Shown: in pieces, positions 11,974 through 38,603 of the stretch
Layout of the letters: every line of letters begins with the position of its first letter
How positions within the stretch are numbered: position 1 is the first letter of the stretch
Assembly (NCBI GenBank): GCA_902785785.1
Contig: CADAAA010000002.1
Span: forward strand, 248,001-312,000
Length of the DNA: 64,000 nucleotides
From: an uncultured Bacteroidia bacterium
Lineage (GTDB): Bacteria > Bacteroidota > Bacteroidia > Bacteroidales > UBA932
Direction: 5' to 3'
Translations under genes and position numbers: made by a program
Notes under the pieces: generated by a model
What the model saw: only the letters and a program-made list of their open reading frames with translations
What the model was told of the DNA's origin: nothing
The model's database searches: none

Positions 11974-12767
11974 ATCCTTATGCTCCTGGCGTAATCGGAC
12001 GGTTCGAACGTACTGAGTTCGTCGATAAAGTGCATTTCCATGGAGCCGGTGCCCGAGGCACGCTCTGCCGCGCGCTCGCCGGCGATGCCCATGAGGGCCA
12101 TGGCGTTACGTGCGGCCATGAGGCTGTCTTCACCTGCTGCGATGAATGCTCCGGTGATGACGGATGCGGTGCAGCCCATTGCCGTGATGCGCGACATCAG
12201 CGGATGTCCGTTGGCTATGGTCAGGACAGTAGTCCCGTCGGTGATGTAGTCTACGGGGCCGCTCATTGAGACAACGGCTCCGCTGCTTATGGCCAGGGCT
12301 TTGGCCGCCTCGACGGCATCGGAACTCAGCACGGAGGTGTCCACCCCGCGCGAGATTATCTGCTCTCCGGCAAGGCACATTATCTCCGAGGCATTGCCAC
12401 GGATAACCGTGGGATGGCTGTCGCGGATGAGGTCGAGGGAGGTTTGGGTGCGGATGCGGCTTGCACCTGCGCCGACCGGGTCGAGAACCCAGGGTTTGCC
12501 CAGACGGTGGGCGGTAGCGGCCGCAATCTTCATTCCTTCGATCTCATGACGGTCAAGGCAGCCGATGTTGACTACAAGGGCTGAAGCTATCCCCACGATC
12601 TCTTCCATCTCCTCGGGACAGAAGGACATGAGGGGGGAAGCCCCGACGGCAAGCAACGCGTTCGCGTTGATGCCCATCGCGACATAATTGGTGATACAAT
12701 GTACAAGGGGGGATTTTTCGCGCACTGCCGCGCAATCCCTGATGAAAGGATCAGATGATGTAGACAT
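11970..12767 (-). CDS. thiM: Hydroxyethylthiazole kinase
   Basis: 265 residues. Phosphorylates the thiazole alcohol THZ, a salvage step. Ribokinase-like family PF02110: HCITNYVAMGINANALLAVG near residue 24-43, WVLDPVGAGASRIR, VIRGNASEI, and the catalytic-loop MGCTASVITGAF. First gene of the operon, with its ATG only three bases beyond the TPP riboswitch core, so ligand binding could directly mask ribosome entry. Confidence 0.95.
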   Translation of the reverse strand: MSTSSDPFIRDCAAVREKSPLVHCITNYVAMGINANALLAVGASPLMSFCPEEMEEIVGIASALVVNIGCLDRHEIEGMKIAAATAHRLGKPWVLDPVGAGASRIRTQTSLDLIRDSHPTVIRGNASEIMCLAGEQIISRGVDTSVLSSDAVEAAKALAISSGAVVSMSGPVDYITDGTTVLTIANGHPLMSRITAMGCTASVITGAFIAAGEDSLMAARNAMALMGIAGERAAERASGTGSMEMHFIDELSTFEPSDYARSIRI

Positions 12768-12770
12768 AAT

Positions 12771-12846
12771 TCCCTACGCTGTAATTAAACAAATCAGGTT
12801 CAAAGGGTATGATCTCAGCTCCGGGTAAATCCCGGCGCACCCCTAT
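12771..12846 (-). ncRNA. TPP riboswitch (THI element)
   Basis: Read on the minus strand the aptamer has GGGGTGC (just inside 12846), a P3 hairpin of complementary CCGGG/CCCGG arms, CTGAGA, ATACCC, TTTGAACCTGAT and the closing GCGTAGGG (ending 12771). These are the conserved TPP-binding elements in order. The aptamer ends next to the thiM ATG and no separate terminator hairpin lies between, so translational control is the simplest model: TPP would occlude the ribosome site of thiM-thiE-tenA-thiD. Confidence 0.95.
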
Positions 12847-12858
12847 TTATTTCAAGTA

Positions 12859-30577: not shown

Positions 30578-32545
30578 CTAAAGAGCCTGTTCCGGGGTGT
30601 CATAGGCGCAGAACTTCGAGTTCTGGCTGATGAACTCCGGAACGGTTTTTTTCATGAGACGTATCATGTCCGGTATCTCCACATTCCGCGAGAGGATCTC
30701 CAACCGGTTCACGGTGTCAAGTGCATCCTTGTAACCGTATTGGCGGACGCGGGCTATGCGTATGCGTTCATGCGTCGTCGGTTCAGTATTCTCGGCACTT
30801 GAGAGGACTTCTTCGTAGAGTTTCTCACCAGGTCTCAAGCCGGTATATTCGATCTCTATATCCTTGCCGACCTTGAGACCGGCCAGGGTGATCATCTTCC
30901 TTGCCAGATCGTCGATCTTGACGGATTCGCCCATGTCGAACACAAAAATGCGGTTGTCCAATGACATGGCCGCAGCTTCCATGACCAGGCGGCAAGCCTC
31001 GGGTATGGTCATGAAGAAACGGGTGATCCTCGGGTCGGTAACGGTCACCGGGCCGCCTTTCTCTATCTGCTCGCGGAAACGGGGTATGACTGAGCCGTTC
31101 GATCCCAGGACATTGCCGAAACGCGTAGTAACGAACTTCGTACGTCCTTTCATTTCACCATTTTCCAACGCAAGCCCTAGTGACTGGACATATATCTCGG
31201 CGAGGCGTTTGGTACATCCCATTACGTTGGTGGGATTGACGGCCTTGTCCGTCGAGATCATCACCATTTTCTCCACGTCGTATTCGATGCACTTATCAGC
31301 GACGTTCCGCGATCCATGGACATTGACCAGTACCGCTTCGCAGGGGTTCTCCTCCATCAATGGGACATGTTTGTAGGCTGCGGCATGGAACACTATTTCA
31401 GGCCGGAACTTCCGGAAGACATAGTCCAGCCGGGCCTGTTGACGAACGTCTCCGATTACGGGGACGAAATCAAGGTCAGGGAAACGTCCTTCAAGTTCAA
31501 GCCGGATATTGTGCATCGGTGTTTCCGCGTTGTCATAAAGGATCAGTTTCTTAATACCGAAAACAGTCAGCTGTCTGCAGAGTTCGCTCCCGATCGATCC
31601 TGCGGCTCCGGTGACAAGGATGGTCTTGTCCATGAATTCGCGGCGGATTTCATCAAGGGAAAGTTTGATCTCCTCCCGGCCGAGAAGGTCCTCGATTTTG
31701 ATCTGGCGGACCTTGTTCTTCATGATCTTTCCGCCAACAACCTCATCTATGGTAGGGGCGAGCAAGACTTTGACCCCGTGTTCAGTACAGAACTGGATGA
31801 GGGAGTCCTTCTCCAGCTGAGCCTCTGATTCGGTGGCGAAGAGGATGCAATCCAAAGTGAAACGGTCGAACAGTGATGCAAGCTGCTTGACGTCGTTATA
31901 GCCGTAAACCGGAGTGTCCGCTACCTTATACTGGGCTGGGAGGGAGTGCGGGACGAGGAAACCGATGATCTGATAGTGGGGCGAATCCTTGAGCCTGGAA
32001 ACCATGGATACGGATTTTTCCGTTGTTCCGTACACCAGTACCCGCTTGCAGTTCTGCCTTGCTCTTATCTGGTTCTTGTATATGTCGTAGACGAAGATCA
32101 TGGCGATGCGGATCCCGATCAGCAGGACGGATGTAAGCAGGAAATCCGCCAGAAGGGCAAGGAGTACGGTGCGGTTGACCATGGAACCGGAAACAATCAC
32201 AGGCAGCATCAGCACCACCTTGACGGCAGAAACCCTGAAGATACCCAGTAGGTCGCGCAGTTGGGAATACCTTATGACTACCTTATGGTTCTTGAAGATG
32301 AGGAGCGAGATGATACTTGCAAGGATGGAAGCTCCCATCCACCAGAAGGCGAAACGTCCCAGGTAGAACGTCTCACTGCTCGACAGCAAAGAGACGAAAA
32401 ACAGGATAAGTACGGACGACAGGAATGACAGAGTAAGGTCAATGAAGAAAATGACCTTGGTGTCGAGGTATTCGAACAAATACTTCTTGAGCCTTGAAGG
32501 CAGCATCCTCAGAAGCCTGCCGGGCTCATTTGACTTTGATTCCAT
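30578..32545 (-). CDS. Membrane-anchored nucleoside-diphosphate-sugar epimerase/dehydratase (CapD/WbpM-like)
   Basis: 655 residues. Four N-terminal membrane helices (about 25-150), then a CoA-binding-like Rossmann region (RVLVYGTTEKSVSMVSRL) and a C-terminal SDR domain with VTGAAGSIGSELCRQ and HAAAYKHVPLME. The catalytic motif is STDKAVNPTNVMGCTK, with Met in the position of the usual Tyr, as in UDP-GlcNAc 4,6-dehydratases such as PglF and WbpM. Likely makes a deoxyamino-sugar nucleotide for capsule or O-antigen. Convergent with GH127 (15-base gap). It stands alone here, without glycosyltransferases. Confidence 0.92.
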   Translation of the reverse strand: MESKSNEPGRLLRMLPSRLKKYLFEYLDTKVIFFIDLTLSFLSSVLILFFVSLLSSSETFYLGRFAFWWMGASILASIISLLIFKNHKVVIRYSQLRDLLGIFRVSAVKVVLMLPVIVSGSMVNRTVLLALLADFLLTSVLLIGIRIAMIFVYDIYKNQIRARQNCKRVLVYGTTEKSVSMVSRLKDSPHYQIIGFLVPHSLPAQYKVADTPVYGYNDVKQLASLFDRFTLDCILFATESEAQLEKDSLIQFCTEHGVKVLLAPTIDEVVGGKIMKNKVRQIKIEDLLGREEIKLSLDEIRREFMDKTILVTGAAGSIGSELCRQLTVFGIKKLILYDNAETPMHNIRLELEGRFPDLDFVPVIGDVRQQARLDYVFRKFRPEIVFHAAAYKHVPLMEENPCEAVLVNVHGSRNVADKCIEYDVEKMVMISTDKAVNPTNVMGCTKRLAEIYVQSLGLALENGEMKGRTKFVTTRFGNVLGSNGSVIPRFREQIEKGGPVTVTDPRITRFFMTIPEACRLVMEAAAMSLDNRIFVFDMGESVKIDDLARKMITLAGLKVGKDIEIEYTGLRPGEKLYEEVLSSAENTEPTTHERIRIARVRQYGYKDALDTVNRLEILSRNVEIPDMIRLMKKTVPEFISQNSKFCAYDTPEQAL

Positions 32546-32597: not shown

Positions 32598-32629
32598 TTT
32601 GGTTTTTTCAGTTGGATTGACTTACTTTG
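32598..32629 (+). promoter_or_regulatory. Promoter of the cysteine leader and cysK-cysE
   Basis: TTTG (32598-32601) and TTACTTTG (32622-32629; one mismatch to TAnnTTTG) are 20 bases apart. The predicted start of transcription falls at about 32634-32637, leaving almost no leader before the first ATG of the small peptide. Confidence 0.65.
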
Positions 32630-32636
32630 TAGAAGA

Positions 32637-32693
32637 ATGAGAAACATGAACGCATACGCTTGTCTCTGTTGCGCCGGTCCCGAGGACAGGTGA
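32637..32693 (+). CDS. Cysteine-codon leader peptide upstream of cysK
   Basis: An 18-codon frame, MRNMNAYACLCCAGPEDR, then TGA. Three of four consecutive codons (32661-32672) are Cys (TGT-CTC-TGT-TGC). A second ATG at 32646 would give 15 codons. It is followed by a strong terminator (32728-32762) and then cysteine synthase and serine acetyltransferase. The arrangement is that of a classic amino-acid attenuator: ribosomes stalled for Cys-tRNA would allow read-through. The peptide is judged a sensor, not a functional protein. No homologue search could be run. Confidence 0.75.
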   Translation: MRNMNAYACLCCAGPEDR

Positions 32694-32727
32694 GGAGCAT
32701 CGTATATGTAGACGCATATTCCCGAAG

Positions 32728-32762
32728 TGCCCTGCCGGTCCGTTCCTGCAGGGCATTTTTTT
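32728..32762 (+). terminator. Attenuator-type intrinsic terminator before cysK
   Basis: TGCCCTGC (32728-32735) pairs exactly with GCAGGGCA (32748-32755), 12-base loop, then seven T residues. It lies 35 bases past the leader stop and 27 bases before the cysK ATG. GGACAGG (32684-32690) in the leader can pair with the CCTG...TCC part of the 5' arm and is a candidate antiterminator strand. Confidence 0.8.
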
Positions 32763-32788
32763 ATGTAAAACACTTAACAGATTCAATT

Positions 32789-33724
32789 ATGATCCATGAT
32801 TCATTGACAAGCCTGGTCGGCAACACCCCTCTGCTGAGGGTCTCCGGCCTTGATGGCCAGAAGGCCGAAATCGTGTTGAAACTCGAGTATTTCAATCCCG
32901 GAGGAAGCGTGAAGGACCGCGTAGCGCTGGCCATGATAGAGGATGCAGAGGGAAAGGGCATCCTGCGCAAGGGCTCGGCCATAATCGAACCGACCAGCGG
33001 CAACACCGGCGTCGGACTGGCCTGGGTCGGTACATCCAAGGGTTACAAGGTGATCCTTACCATGCCCGAGACCATGAGCCAGGAGCGCCGCAGCCTGCTG
33101 AAGGCGCTTGGTGCGGAACTGGTGCTCACACCGGGAGCCGAGGGCATGAAAGGTGCCATTCGCAAGGCGGAGGAACTCCGTGACGCCACTCCCGGCAGCG
33201 TGATTCTCGGACAGTTTGTCAATCCTGCCAATCCGGCGGTACATGAGAGAACCACCGGAGAAGAGATCTGGAGGGACACCGACGGAAAGCTTGATGTATT
33301 CGTCGCCGGAGTGGGTACCGGAGGTACCGTCAGTGGAACGGGCCGTGCGCTCAAGCGCCACGATCCTTCCATCAAGGTCGTGGCAGTGGAGCCGGCGACT
33401 TCCGCCGTCCTGTCCACCGGAGTTCCAGGTAAGCACGGGATCCAGGGCATCGGCGCAGGATTTGTTCCCGAAACATACGATGGATCCATTGTGGATGAGA
33501 TCCTTACGGTCAGCGACAAGGAGGCAGTGGCGGGCTCCCGCCTGCTGGCCTCCCGTGAAGGCCTGCTCGTCGGTATAAGTTCAGGAGCTTCCTTTGCGGC
33601 TGCCCTTAGGCTTGCCAGGCTTCCGGAGAATGCTGGCAAGCGCATCGTGGCACTGCTTCCAGATACCGGTGAGCGCTATCTCTCAACCATCCTTTTTGCA
33701 TTTGATACTTATCCCACAGACTGA
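32789..33724 (+). CDS. cysK: Cysteine synthase A (O-acetylserine sulfhydrylase)
   Basis: 311 residues from ATG 32789; the open frame extends upstream through the attenuator but that part is not coding. Makes cysteine from O-acetylserine and sulfide with PLP. Visible: NPGGSVKDR with the Schiff-base Lys, EPTSGNTGVGLAW, the phosphate-binding loop GVGTGGTVSGTGR, and SSGA near the C-terminus. One base separates it from cysE, so the two enzymes that form the cysteine synthase complex are co-expressed. Confidence 0.95.
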   Translation: MIHDSLTSLVGNTPLLRVSGLDGQKAEIVLKLEYFNPGGSVKDRVALAMIEDAEGKGILRKGSAIIEPTSGNTGVGLAWVGTSKGYKVILTMPETMSQERRSLLKALGAELVLTPGAEGMKGAIRKAEELRDATPGSVILGQFVNPANPAVHERTTGEEIWRDTDGKLDVFVAGVGTGGTVSGTGRALKRHDPSIKVVAVEPATSAVLSTGVPGKHGIQGIGAGFVPETYDGSIVDEILTVSDKEAVAGSRLLASREGLLVGISSGASFAAALRLARLPENAGKRIVALLPDTGERYLSTILFAFDTYPTD

Positions 33725-33725
33725 A

Positions 33726-34463
33726 ATGAATATCTCCCTCAACCAGACCGTTGAACATCTCAAGTCACTGATGGCCAGCGTAAAAGATTATGTGTTCCCG
33801 GATTACAGCGAGATCAGGACGGAGAACGCCGCCTCGAATATCGCCGGCCGGATAGAAGCCGTTAGCCAGCCCGGAACGGCAGCCGCTTTCATGAAGCGGC
33901 TGCCTCTCATCCGGGAGATGCTTGCCGCGGACGTTGAAGCTATTGCGCACAACGATCCTGCAGCCTCGGACACCCGTGAAATCATCTTCTGTTATCCTGC
34001 AGTGACTGCCATGCTTTATTACCGCACGGCACATGAGCTGTATGTACTAGGCGTGCCAGTCATACCGCGCATGCTGACCGAGTATGCCCATTCGGCCACT
34101 GGGATAGACATACATCCGGCCGCCGTGATCGGAGACCATTTCGCAATAGACCATGGAACGGGTGTGGTTATTGGAGAAACAGCTGTTATAGGCAGCCATG
34201 TCACGCTTTATCAGGGAGTTACACTCGGTGCAAAGAATTTCTCCTATGATGCCGAAGGTCATCCGCTCAACATACCGAGACATCCTATACTGGAGGACAA
34301 TGTCACCGTATATTCCAACGCTTCCATTCTCGGTCGGGTCACGATAGGGGAGGGCTCGGTCATCGGGGGTAACGTCTGGCTTACGCATTCCGTTCCCCCT
34401 CATTCACGAATACTGCAGGGTAAAGCGCAGGATCTTAGTTTTTCCGACGGGGCGGGAATCTGA
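33726..34463 (+). CDS. cysE: Serine O-acetyltransferase
   Basis: 245 residues from ATG 33726. Forms O-acetylserine from serine and acetyl-CoA. N-terminal helical domain, then hexapeptide-repeat left-handed beta-helix beginning ATGIDIHPAAVIGDHFAIDHGTGVVIGETAVIG (spread over several turns), with the catalytic Asp/His pair in DHGTG and the LYQGVTLG motif. The C-terminus ends SDGAGI; the final Ile is what inserts into CysK in known complexes. Feedback by cysteine is known for this family. Confidence 0.93.
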   Translation: MNISLNQTVEHLKSLMASVKDYVFPDYSEIRTENAASNIAGRIEAVSQPGTAAAFMKRLPLIREMLAADVEAIAHNDPAASDTREIIFCYPAVTAMLYYRTAHELYVLGVPVIPRMLTEYAHSATGIDIHPAAVIGDHFAIDHGTGVVIGETAVIGSHVTLYQGVTLGAKNFSYDAEGHPLNIPRHPILEDNVTVYSNASILGRVTIGEGSVIGGNVWLTHSVPPHSRILQGKAQDLSFSDGAGI

Positions 34464-38169: not shown

Positions 38170-38566
38170 GGGGATGTTTTGGTTTTGACAGCATCGATGC
38201 GGGACAGTAAGCACGTCGTGAGTCGGAAGCCCTCACGTAAATACCAGTTTCCAAAAAACTAGTTGGCAACAACAATTTCGCACTCGCTGCTTAATTTGAC
38301 CAAGTCAAATTGCTTAATCCGGTCCGCCTAGGCTGCGGGCCAGACGAGTATCCCTCCGAACTTTACGCCGGTTATGGTCGGGTCAAGGGGTATCATTCAA
38401 ACCGGACGCGTGGGGTAATTCCTCTGAATCCTCACTAAGACGCAGGGGATAAGCTTCAGGTGGCCCGCCTTCCGGCAGCCTGTCGCCGACAATCAAAGGA
38501 CGGATAAGCGTGTAGAAAGCTCTCTTGTGCGTTGTTTGGACGGCGGTTCGAGTCCGCCCATCTCCA
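38170..38566 (+). ncRNA. ssrA: tmRNA (transfer-messenger RNA)
   Basis: 5' GGGGATG pairs with 3' CATCTCC (one G-U) to give the tRNA-like acceptor stem, and GGTTCGAGTCC forms the T arm close to the 3' end; the discriminator A is at 38566 and CCA is not fully encoded. The tag frame starts at GGC 38265 after a TAGTT context and reads GNNNFALAA, stop TAA 38292-38294. It rescues stalled ribosomes and tags the product for proteolysis. The tag has Phe where Bacteroidetes tags usually have Tyr. The 3' end serves as an apparent integration site. Confidence 0.96.
38265..38294 (+). other. tmRNA proteolysis-tag reading frame
   Basis: Nine codons GNNNFALAA plus TAA, with resume codon GGC. The ALAA end is the conserved degron for ClpXP-type proteases. 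Confidence 0.9.
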
Positions 38567-38567
38567 C
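38554..38567 (+). repeat. Left direct repeat (candidate attL) in ssrA 3' end
   Basis: CCGCCCATCTCCAC covers the tmRNA T-arm/acceptor end and recurs exactly at 44975-44988. After one mismatch both copies continue with AAAA. The segment between them is clearly lower in GC than both flanks. Confidence 0.65.
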
Positions 38568-38603
38568 AAAAATCCCTCTCAGAGTTCTCTGAGAGGGATT
38601 TTT
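38568..38603 (+). terminator. Intrinsic terminator of ssrA
   Basis: TCCCTCTCAGAG (38573-38584) pairs perfectly with CTCTGAGAGGGA (38587-38598), flanked by A5 and T5 tracts. It starts immediately after the tmRNA, inside the putative island. Confidence 0.92.

Follow-up and report, generated by a model that had tools for sequence, protein, structure and literature searches.

A candidate cysteine leader-peptide attenuator ahead of cysK-cysE in Candidatus Cryptobacteroides

Introduction

Sulfur enters protein and cofactors by way of cysteine. In a 64,000-nucleotide stretch of DNA (hereafter the window) from the genus Candidatus Cryptobacteroides, which we take to be a member of the Bacteroidales, the genes for cysteine synthase and a serine O-acetyltransferase lie behind a probable promoter, a short open reading frame (ORF) with clustered Cys codons and a hairpin that ends in a run of T. 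Do these parts form an attenuator through which the supply of charged Cys-tRNA sets the transcription of the two genes? The trp and his leaders of E. coli are examples of leader-peptide transcription attenuators in Proteobacteria. How the bacteria studied here decide on cysteine synthesis is a basic question. The initial annotation of this DNA had proposed an amino-acid attenuation architecture for the locus. In the follow-up we computed the parts of the element, their conservation, and the covariation of both of its alternative structures in relatives.

Results

The leader region of cysK and its parts

The features of the locus are collected in Table 1. The promoter-like sequence that the initial annotation had placed directly ahead of the short ORF was recovered at its stated position, and TTACTTTG has one mismatch to TAnnTTTG, the consensus of the Bacteroides-type promoter box. 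Because the ATG of the leader lies only 7 nt 3' of this box, the mRNA of the window appears to be leaderless or nearly so, and the leader ORF is probably translated from such an mRNA. Among the 38 leaders described in the next section, a relaxed box, T(A/T)nnTTTG, was found 6-9 nt 5' of the leader start in 16 and 15-20 nt 5' of it in 7 (raw counts), and the strict box was found 6-9 nt 5' of the start in 6. The polycysteine leader ORFs of mycobacteria are reportedly leaderless. Neither the promoter nor the terminator of the window appeared in the output of simple promoter and terminator scans; such scans search for hexamers of the sigma-70 type and accept hairpin loops of 3-8 nt, and the terminator here has a loop of 12.

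Table 1. Features of the cysK-cysE locus, in coordinates of the window
Feature	Position	Strand	Sequence or basis
Bacteroidetes-type promoter	32598..32629	+	TTTG 32598-32601, 20-nt spacer, TTACTTTG 32622-32629
Leader peptide ORF, 18 codons, MRNMNAYACLCCAGPEDR and stop	32637..32693	+	Sequence; Cys-rich ORFs of relatives at the same place
Putative sensor codons TGT CTC TGT TGC (Cys-Leu-Cys-Cys)	32661..32672	+	Sequence; Cys clusters in 38 leaders
Strand 1, CGCCGGTCC, can pair with 32684-32692	32672..32680	+	-10.5 kcal/mol
Strand 2, 5' strand of the antiterminator, overlaps the 3' end of the leader ORF, stop codon included	32684..32700	+	Pairing with strand 3
Strand 3, alternative partner of strand 2 (14 pairs) or, by its part 32728-32735, of strand 4	32727..32741	+	
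Intrinsic terminator, formed by strands 3 (32728-32735) and 4 (32748-32755)	32728..32762	+	12-nt loop, seven T
cysK, cysteine synthase A (O-acetylserine sulfhydrylase)	32789..33724	+	NCBIfam TIGR01139, 433 bits, cut-off 351
cysE-like serine O-acetyltransferase	33726..34463	+	NCBIfam TIGR01172 as best match, 159 bits, cut-off of 210.65 not reached

The 18-codon ORF with three Cys codons in four and the 8-bp terminator with seven T were likewise confirmed. The two arms of the terminator, TGCCCTGC and GCAGGGCA, form a perfect stem, the T run occupies 32756-32762, and the stop codon of the leader lies at 32691-32693. Among the 678 short ATG ORFs (8-40 aa) on both strands of the window, the motif C.?C.?C was found in this leader alone. 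The gene on the 5' side (30578-32545) is encoded on the opposite strand and diverges from the leader, and therefore the terminator does not serve that gene. On the 3' side, the identification of cysteine synthase held above the family cut-off, and the serine acetyltransferase that had been named with it is a CysE-like protein whose best match stays below its cut-off (Table 1). The CysE-like enzyme would make the substrate of CysK, and its gene adjoins the 3' side of cysK in many relatives.

When the covariance models of Rfam 15 were run at the gathering score, there was no match in the leader (T-box, the SAM riboswitches and Bacteroid-trp included). The Rfam matches in the window were two, both away from the leader: a TPP riboswitch aptamer (RF00059, 62.5 bits) at 12754-12854 on the minus strand, and a tmRNA gene at 38170-38569 on the plus strand, with the tag GNNNFALAA.

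The leader region of the window folds better than its shuffled versions (z = -2.24; 7 of 200 shuffles equalled it). A candidate antiterminator strand had been proposed at 32684-32690; its place proved right and its extent too short, as the strand reaches 32700 and forms 14 pairs with 32727-32741, with an energy of -19.7 kcal/mol that is not significant in this single leader (p = 0.107). Folded from 32707 onward, the RNA forms the terminator alone (-23.0), and the segment 32683-32745 forms the antiterminator (-23.0). Once strand 4 was added, the terminator was favoured at equilibrium (-28.5), even without strand 1. Thus, the switch must depend on the order in which the strands are synthesized.

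Cys codon clusters upstream of cysK in the genus

A search for CysK covered 400 genomes from the genus, of which 117 matched at E 1e-110 or better. From these matches and from preceding searches, 127 stretches upstream of cysK were collected and scanned. These represent 126 distinct stretches, G172 having been entered twice; two are below 320 bases in length (130 and 175), another three measure 443-500, and G055:C133 was excluded because its contig starts within the gene. A leader was defined as a short ORF that holds C.?C.?C, and 39 ORFs were flagged by this rule, one of which (G060b) was removed for lying 482 nt away. The search of related genomes that the initial annotation had suggested found Cys codon clusters 5' of cysK in 38 of the 127 stretches. 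The ORFs start 150-261 nt 5' of CysK and encode 15-43 residues with 3-8 Cys each, as exemplified by MRNFAAYACCCCTCPAGWYGVLCA, MTRIYSSVCCCCTILSDWYGV and MRNLYFAACCCSVPIPMTGAEGKL. Counting ATG starts only, 35 leaders were observed and 0.47 were expected from a flanking control of 426 kb, which holds 5 on its two strands. For roughly 88 cysK places in the genus, the C.?C.?C rule found no leader.

Three leaders with two Cys, in G103, G209 and G398, were spotted by eye and stand outside the count of 38. The one in G209 (L169) belongs to the nearest relative of the window (CysK 94% identical) and reads C-L-C-Y, its third Cys having been replaced by a Tyr codon, and both of its antiterminator strands are unchanged. 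Reading by eye, we found merely two adjacent Cys codons in G103 and G398, and in G103 (L158) a stop codon 5' of strand 2; the latter leader is possibly a decaying attenuator.

The codon changes in the leaders were counted in 16 related leaders that fall into six groups. The Cys run showed 2 synonymous and 1 non-synonymous change in 56 codon pairs, the part 5' of it 13 and 44 in 118 codon pairs, and the part 3' of it 12 and 31 in 208, counts that are biased by the hand-picking of the groups and by the choice of these 16 leaders for having a Cys run.

In three loci (L021, L151 and L153, from G015, G189 and G136) the Cys leader starts 4 nt past the stop codon of the upstream gene. This gene is rpoC in L021, and its 3' end is nearly identical in L151 and L153. 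Because of this distance to rpoC, or to a gene end nearly identical to it, cysK-cysE may be expressed there by read-through of the rpoBC transcript.

Antiterminator and terminator across the leaders

A T-tailed hairpin was found between the ORF and cysK in 37 of the 38 leaders (raw count); the sole exception is G013, where no terminator was found. The final codons of the leader ORF mostly read GAYTGGYACGG (D-W-Y-G, or more widely the D-W/R-Y-G type, with GAYTGGYA in the RNA), and they are complementary to the 5' arm and loop of the terminator, which mostly read CCTGCC(A/G)(A/G)TC (core TGCCRRTC). In a second clade, whose peptide has P-E-G-W-C, GGATGGTGCA pairs with TGCATCATCC.

The energies of the duplex between strands 2 and 3, summed over 28 cluster representatives of 37 leaders, amounted to -470 kcal/mol, compared with -320 (sd 14) for dinucleotide shuffles. 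The native sum lies 10.9 sd below the shuffles, none of which reached it in 400 trials. Moreover, when the partners were permuted among the 28 representatives, the native pairing was reached in 0 of 5000 permutations. Taken singly, 25 of the 37 leaders gave p < 0.05 for this pairing and 12 gave p >= 0.05.

Covariation was assessed in 21 of the 37 leaders, a hand-chosen set of the D-W/R-Y-G type together with the window, which was aligned by sequence alone. In this alignment, whose pair counts lean toward the structure because it was read from the same leaders, some of which are close pairs, 96.0% of the antiterminator cells were paired, and 18 two-sided cells (0 of 500 shuffles) occurred in 4 pairs (9 of 500). 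Sliding the antiterminator alignment by 1-3 columns left 17-45% of the cells paired. The compensatory change of GATTGG:CCAATC to GACCGG:CCGGTC alters the peptide from W to R. The covariation check of the terminator, which the initial annotation had also called for, gave 92.9% paired cells in the same alignment; cells changed on both sides numbered 13 (0 of 500 shuffles) and fell into 3 pairs (91 of 500). In the hairpin of strands 1 and 2, 86.4% of the cells were paired, a level reached by 88 of 500 shuffles, and its covariation was weak. The partner permutation is a safer test than these pair counts.

Specificity and distribution of the element

A covariance model was built from the 21 leaders. 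In 300 genomes of the genus it gave 28 matches below E 1e-5, 22 of which had previously been identified as leaders upstream of cysK. Four of the six further matches precede CysK, two of these on contigs that are cut inside the gene. In L273 (G010:C169) the leader is joined directly to coding sequence from the middle of CysK, a junction that is perhaps an assembly fault or a deletion, and the match in G001:C74 sits at a contig end and is not among the 27 of the 28 assigned to CysK or a CysK fragment. Every assigned match below 1e-5 thus places the element at cysK, and none places it at another gene. In the genome from which the window comes, the leader is the sole match at E 0.1 or better. A pattern scan of that genome with TGYNNNTGYTGYGC hit 21 places. 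Eight of these were taken up as loci, the six on the plus strand were translated, and among the six the known leader alone resembled a Cys leader.

In 295 genomes of the order, the model found nothing better than E 1.1e-5 outside the genus. The matches there were mostly partial, covering the terminator half, and some weak ones covered the whole model; a scan of the two best (L283 and L284) found no Cys ORF. Within the genus to which Alistipes sp. An66 belongs, CysK was present at E 1e-100 in 4 of 61 genomes, and a Cys leader was found in all four (L302, L305, L306 and L307). These leaders contain MCCCAA, followed by further Cys in three of the four and by I-V-P-A-A-G, and CCTGCTGCC:GGCAGCAG(G/C) pairs the leader with the 5' arm of the terminator (p = 0.002, 0.006, 0.164 and 0.008). 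The T runs are short in two of the four (L302 and L307). Their sequence differs from that of the Cryptobacteroides leaders; the layout is the same. An order-wide search with the CysK of the Alistipes group gave no match at E 1e-140, a cut-off too strict for the result to carry weight.

In the 450 nt upstream of 80 named cysK loci, a Cys ORF was flagged at ten, namely at L071 (Cryptobacteroides), L128 (Alistipes), L096 and L099 (Tannerella) and under six names outside the Bacteroidales. The two Tannerella frames start with TTG and are probably due to chance. None of the loci labelled Bacteroides, Parabacteroides or Prevotella among the 80 was flagged, which implies that the device is not general at cysK in the order.

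Cys-rich short ORFs were also seen 5' of cysK at eight loci labelled Lachnospiraceae, Clostridiales, Clostridium or Ruminococcaceae (L117, L119, L122, L144, L146, L308, L309 and L325), for example MRHRKRMCCCSKGRC and the alternating Met-Cys sequence MCCMCCMCSTC. Inspection by eye added a candidate T-tailed hairpin 3' of the ORF in L122, L146 and L325. In the genus of G791, 3 of 20 scanned loci had a Cys-rich short ORF.

Discussion

Judged from sequence, the element in the window is most likely a ribosome-mediated transcription attenuator of the trp/his leader-peptide type, in which the supply of Cys-tRNA would set the expression of cysK-cysE (probability about 0.87). The downstream genes make the amino acid that would be sensed, and strand 2 and the stop codon are placed as a classic attenuator needs them. 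The architecture that the initial annotation had recognized is supported by the Cys clusters (38/127), the hairpins (37/38), the compensatory changes and the partner permutation.

From these features we infer translation of the peptide, the start of the transcript, ribosome stalling and a response to cysteine. The transcript would begin a few bases 5' of 32637, and a ribosome on the 18-codon peptide would trail the polymerase. With ample charged Cys-tRNA, the ribosome would reach the stop codon (32691-32693) and mask strand 2 (32684-32700), so that strand 3 would pair with strand 4 and transcription would terminate at the T run. When cysteine is scarce, the ribosome would stall with the Cys codons of 32661-32672 in its A site and its leading edge at about 32673-32682, as placed from the size of the ribosome footprint, and strand 2 would be exposed. 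It could then pair with strand 3 (32727-32741) ahead of the synthesis of strand 4, no terminator would form, and cysK-cysE would be transcribed.

A Cys-rich ORF could instead act on translation, if slow leader ribosomes changed how accessible the downstream gene is, with an incidental hairpin. Polycysteine short ORFs of M. smegmatis are described as translation attenuators in the available portions of two papers (PMC9031893, PMC13236596), and the 16 of 38 leaders with a promoter-like box close 5' of the start resemble leaderless ORFs. A purely translational role nevertheless leaves aside that a T-tailed hairpin is present in 37 of the 38 leaders, that this terminator covaries, and that it is with the terminator arm itself that the leader covaries, and we consider it improbable. 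Marginally less probable again is a regulated terminator that responds to another signal, be it redox state or metal by way of the nascent Cys-rich peptide, or a protein, so that the Cys residues would serve peptide chemistry and not the sensing of tRNA charge. A leader with 3-8 Cys could bind metal or react with thiols, and G209, the nearest relative, tolerates the loss of one Cys; on the other hand, the residues 5' of the Cys run vary freely (in the hand-picked groups, 44 changes in 118 codon pairs were non-synonymous, versus 1 in 56 within the run), cysteine is what the downstream genes produce, and strand 2 and the stop codon occupy the positions known from classic attenuators.

The window taken by itself, with no significant antiterminator (p = 0.107), would also suit a chance ORF that happens to precede an ordinary terminator. 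Against the 35 leaders observed where 0.47 were expected, and against the covariation, this explanation is the least credible of all and retains hardly any weight, unless the way the loci were chosen produced those comparative results as an artefact.

If the attenuator reading is true, cysteine joins the amino acids that are sensed by classic transcription attenuation, with both structures supported by covariation. The 38 natural variants, in which RNA pairing visibly leaves its mark on the peptide (W becomes R in D-W-Y-G), are material for studying the co-evolution of a leader peptide and its antiterminator. We also put forward, tentatively and at somewhat less than even odds, a broader proposal: cysteine may be a recurrent signal for transcription attenuation in Bacteroidota, acting through leaderless or nearly leaderless leaders, and the device may have arisen or been rebuilt more than once (in Cryptobacteroides and in the Alistipes group); where it lies directly behind rpoC, as in some species, cysK-cysE would perhaps be expressed by cysteine-controlled read-through from the RNA polymerase operon.

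Going by the parts of the papers that were available, control of this kind in Bacteroidota has been suspected more often than shown (PMC7366714, PMC9723704). Bacteroid-trp RNA (Rfam RF01692) is an element of Bacteroidetes (PMC2864571, in the part available); it comes from the same phylum as the present leader, belongs to trp by its name and hence to another amino acid, and has no Rfam match here. In Flavobacterium psychrophilum, of the same phylum, leader peptides have been inferred 5' of amino-acid biosynthesis operons, and in the text at hand neither cysteine nor cysK is named for these attenuators (PMC9723704). Leader peptides have been suspected in Bacteroidetes, with cysK not named in the passages available (PMC7366714), and are described in Firmicutes in a paper whose main text, as far as available, does not contain "cysK" or "cysE" (PMC2965389).

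The initial annotation named Cys-rich upstream ORFs of mycobacteria and no well-described case from Bacteroidales. Our literature searches agree with this: in the literature covered, mostly outside subscription journals and partly in excerpt, the cases found were from Actinobacteria, and there was no cysteine leader-peptide attenuator in Bacteroidales. Cys leader ORFs are described in Mycobacterium, Propionibacterium and Bifidobacterium, where the mode of regulation is given as unknown, and the Mycobacterium regions have no conserved hairpin able to act as a terminator, according to the available part of that paper (PMC1262725). The mycobacterial polycysteine ORFs act on translation, according to the portions available (PMC9031893, PMC13236596). 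Like ours, the actinobacterial leaders are short ORFs that carry Cys codon runs and precede cysteine genes; in contrast to the Mycobacterium leaders, as far as these are described in the texts available, ours have a terminator (a hairpin in 37/38) and an antiterminator.

With the trp and his attenuators, the element shares a short ORF in which codons for the end product abound, an antiterminator of strands 2 and 3, a terminator of strands 3 and 4, a stop codon over strand 2 and a biosynthetic operon downstream. It differs from them in its short hairpin of strands 1 and 2, which is without clear covariation, in the amino acid, which here would be cysteine, in its Bacteroidales host, and in a leader start that probably lies at the 5' end of the mRNA or a few bases from it.
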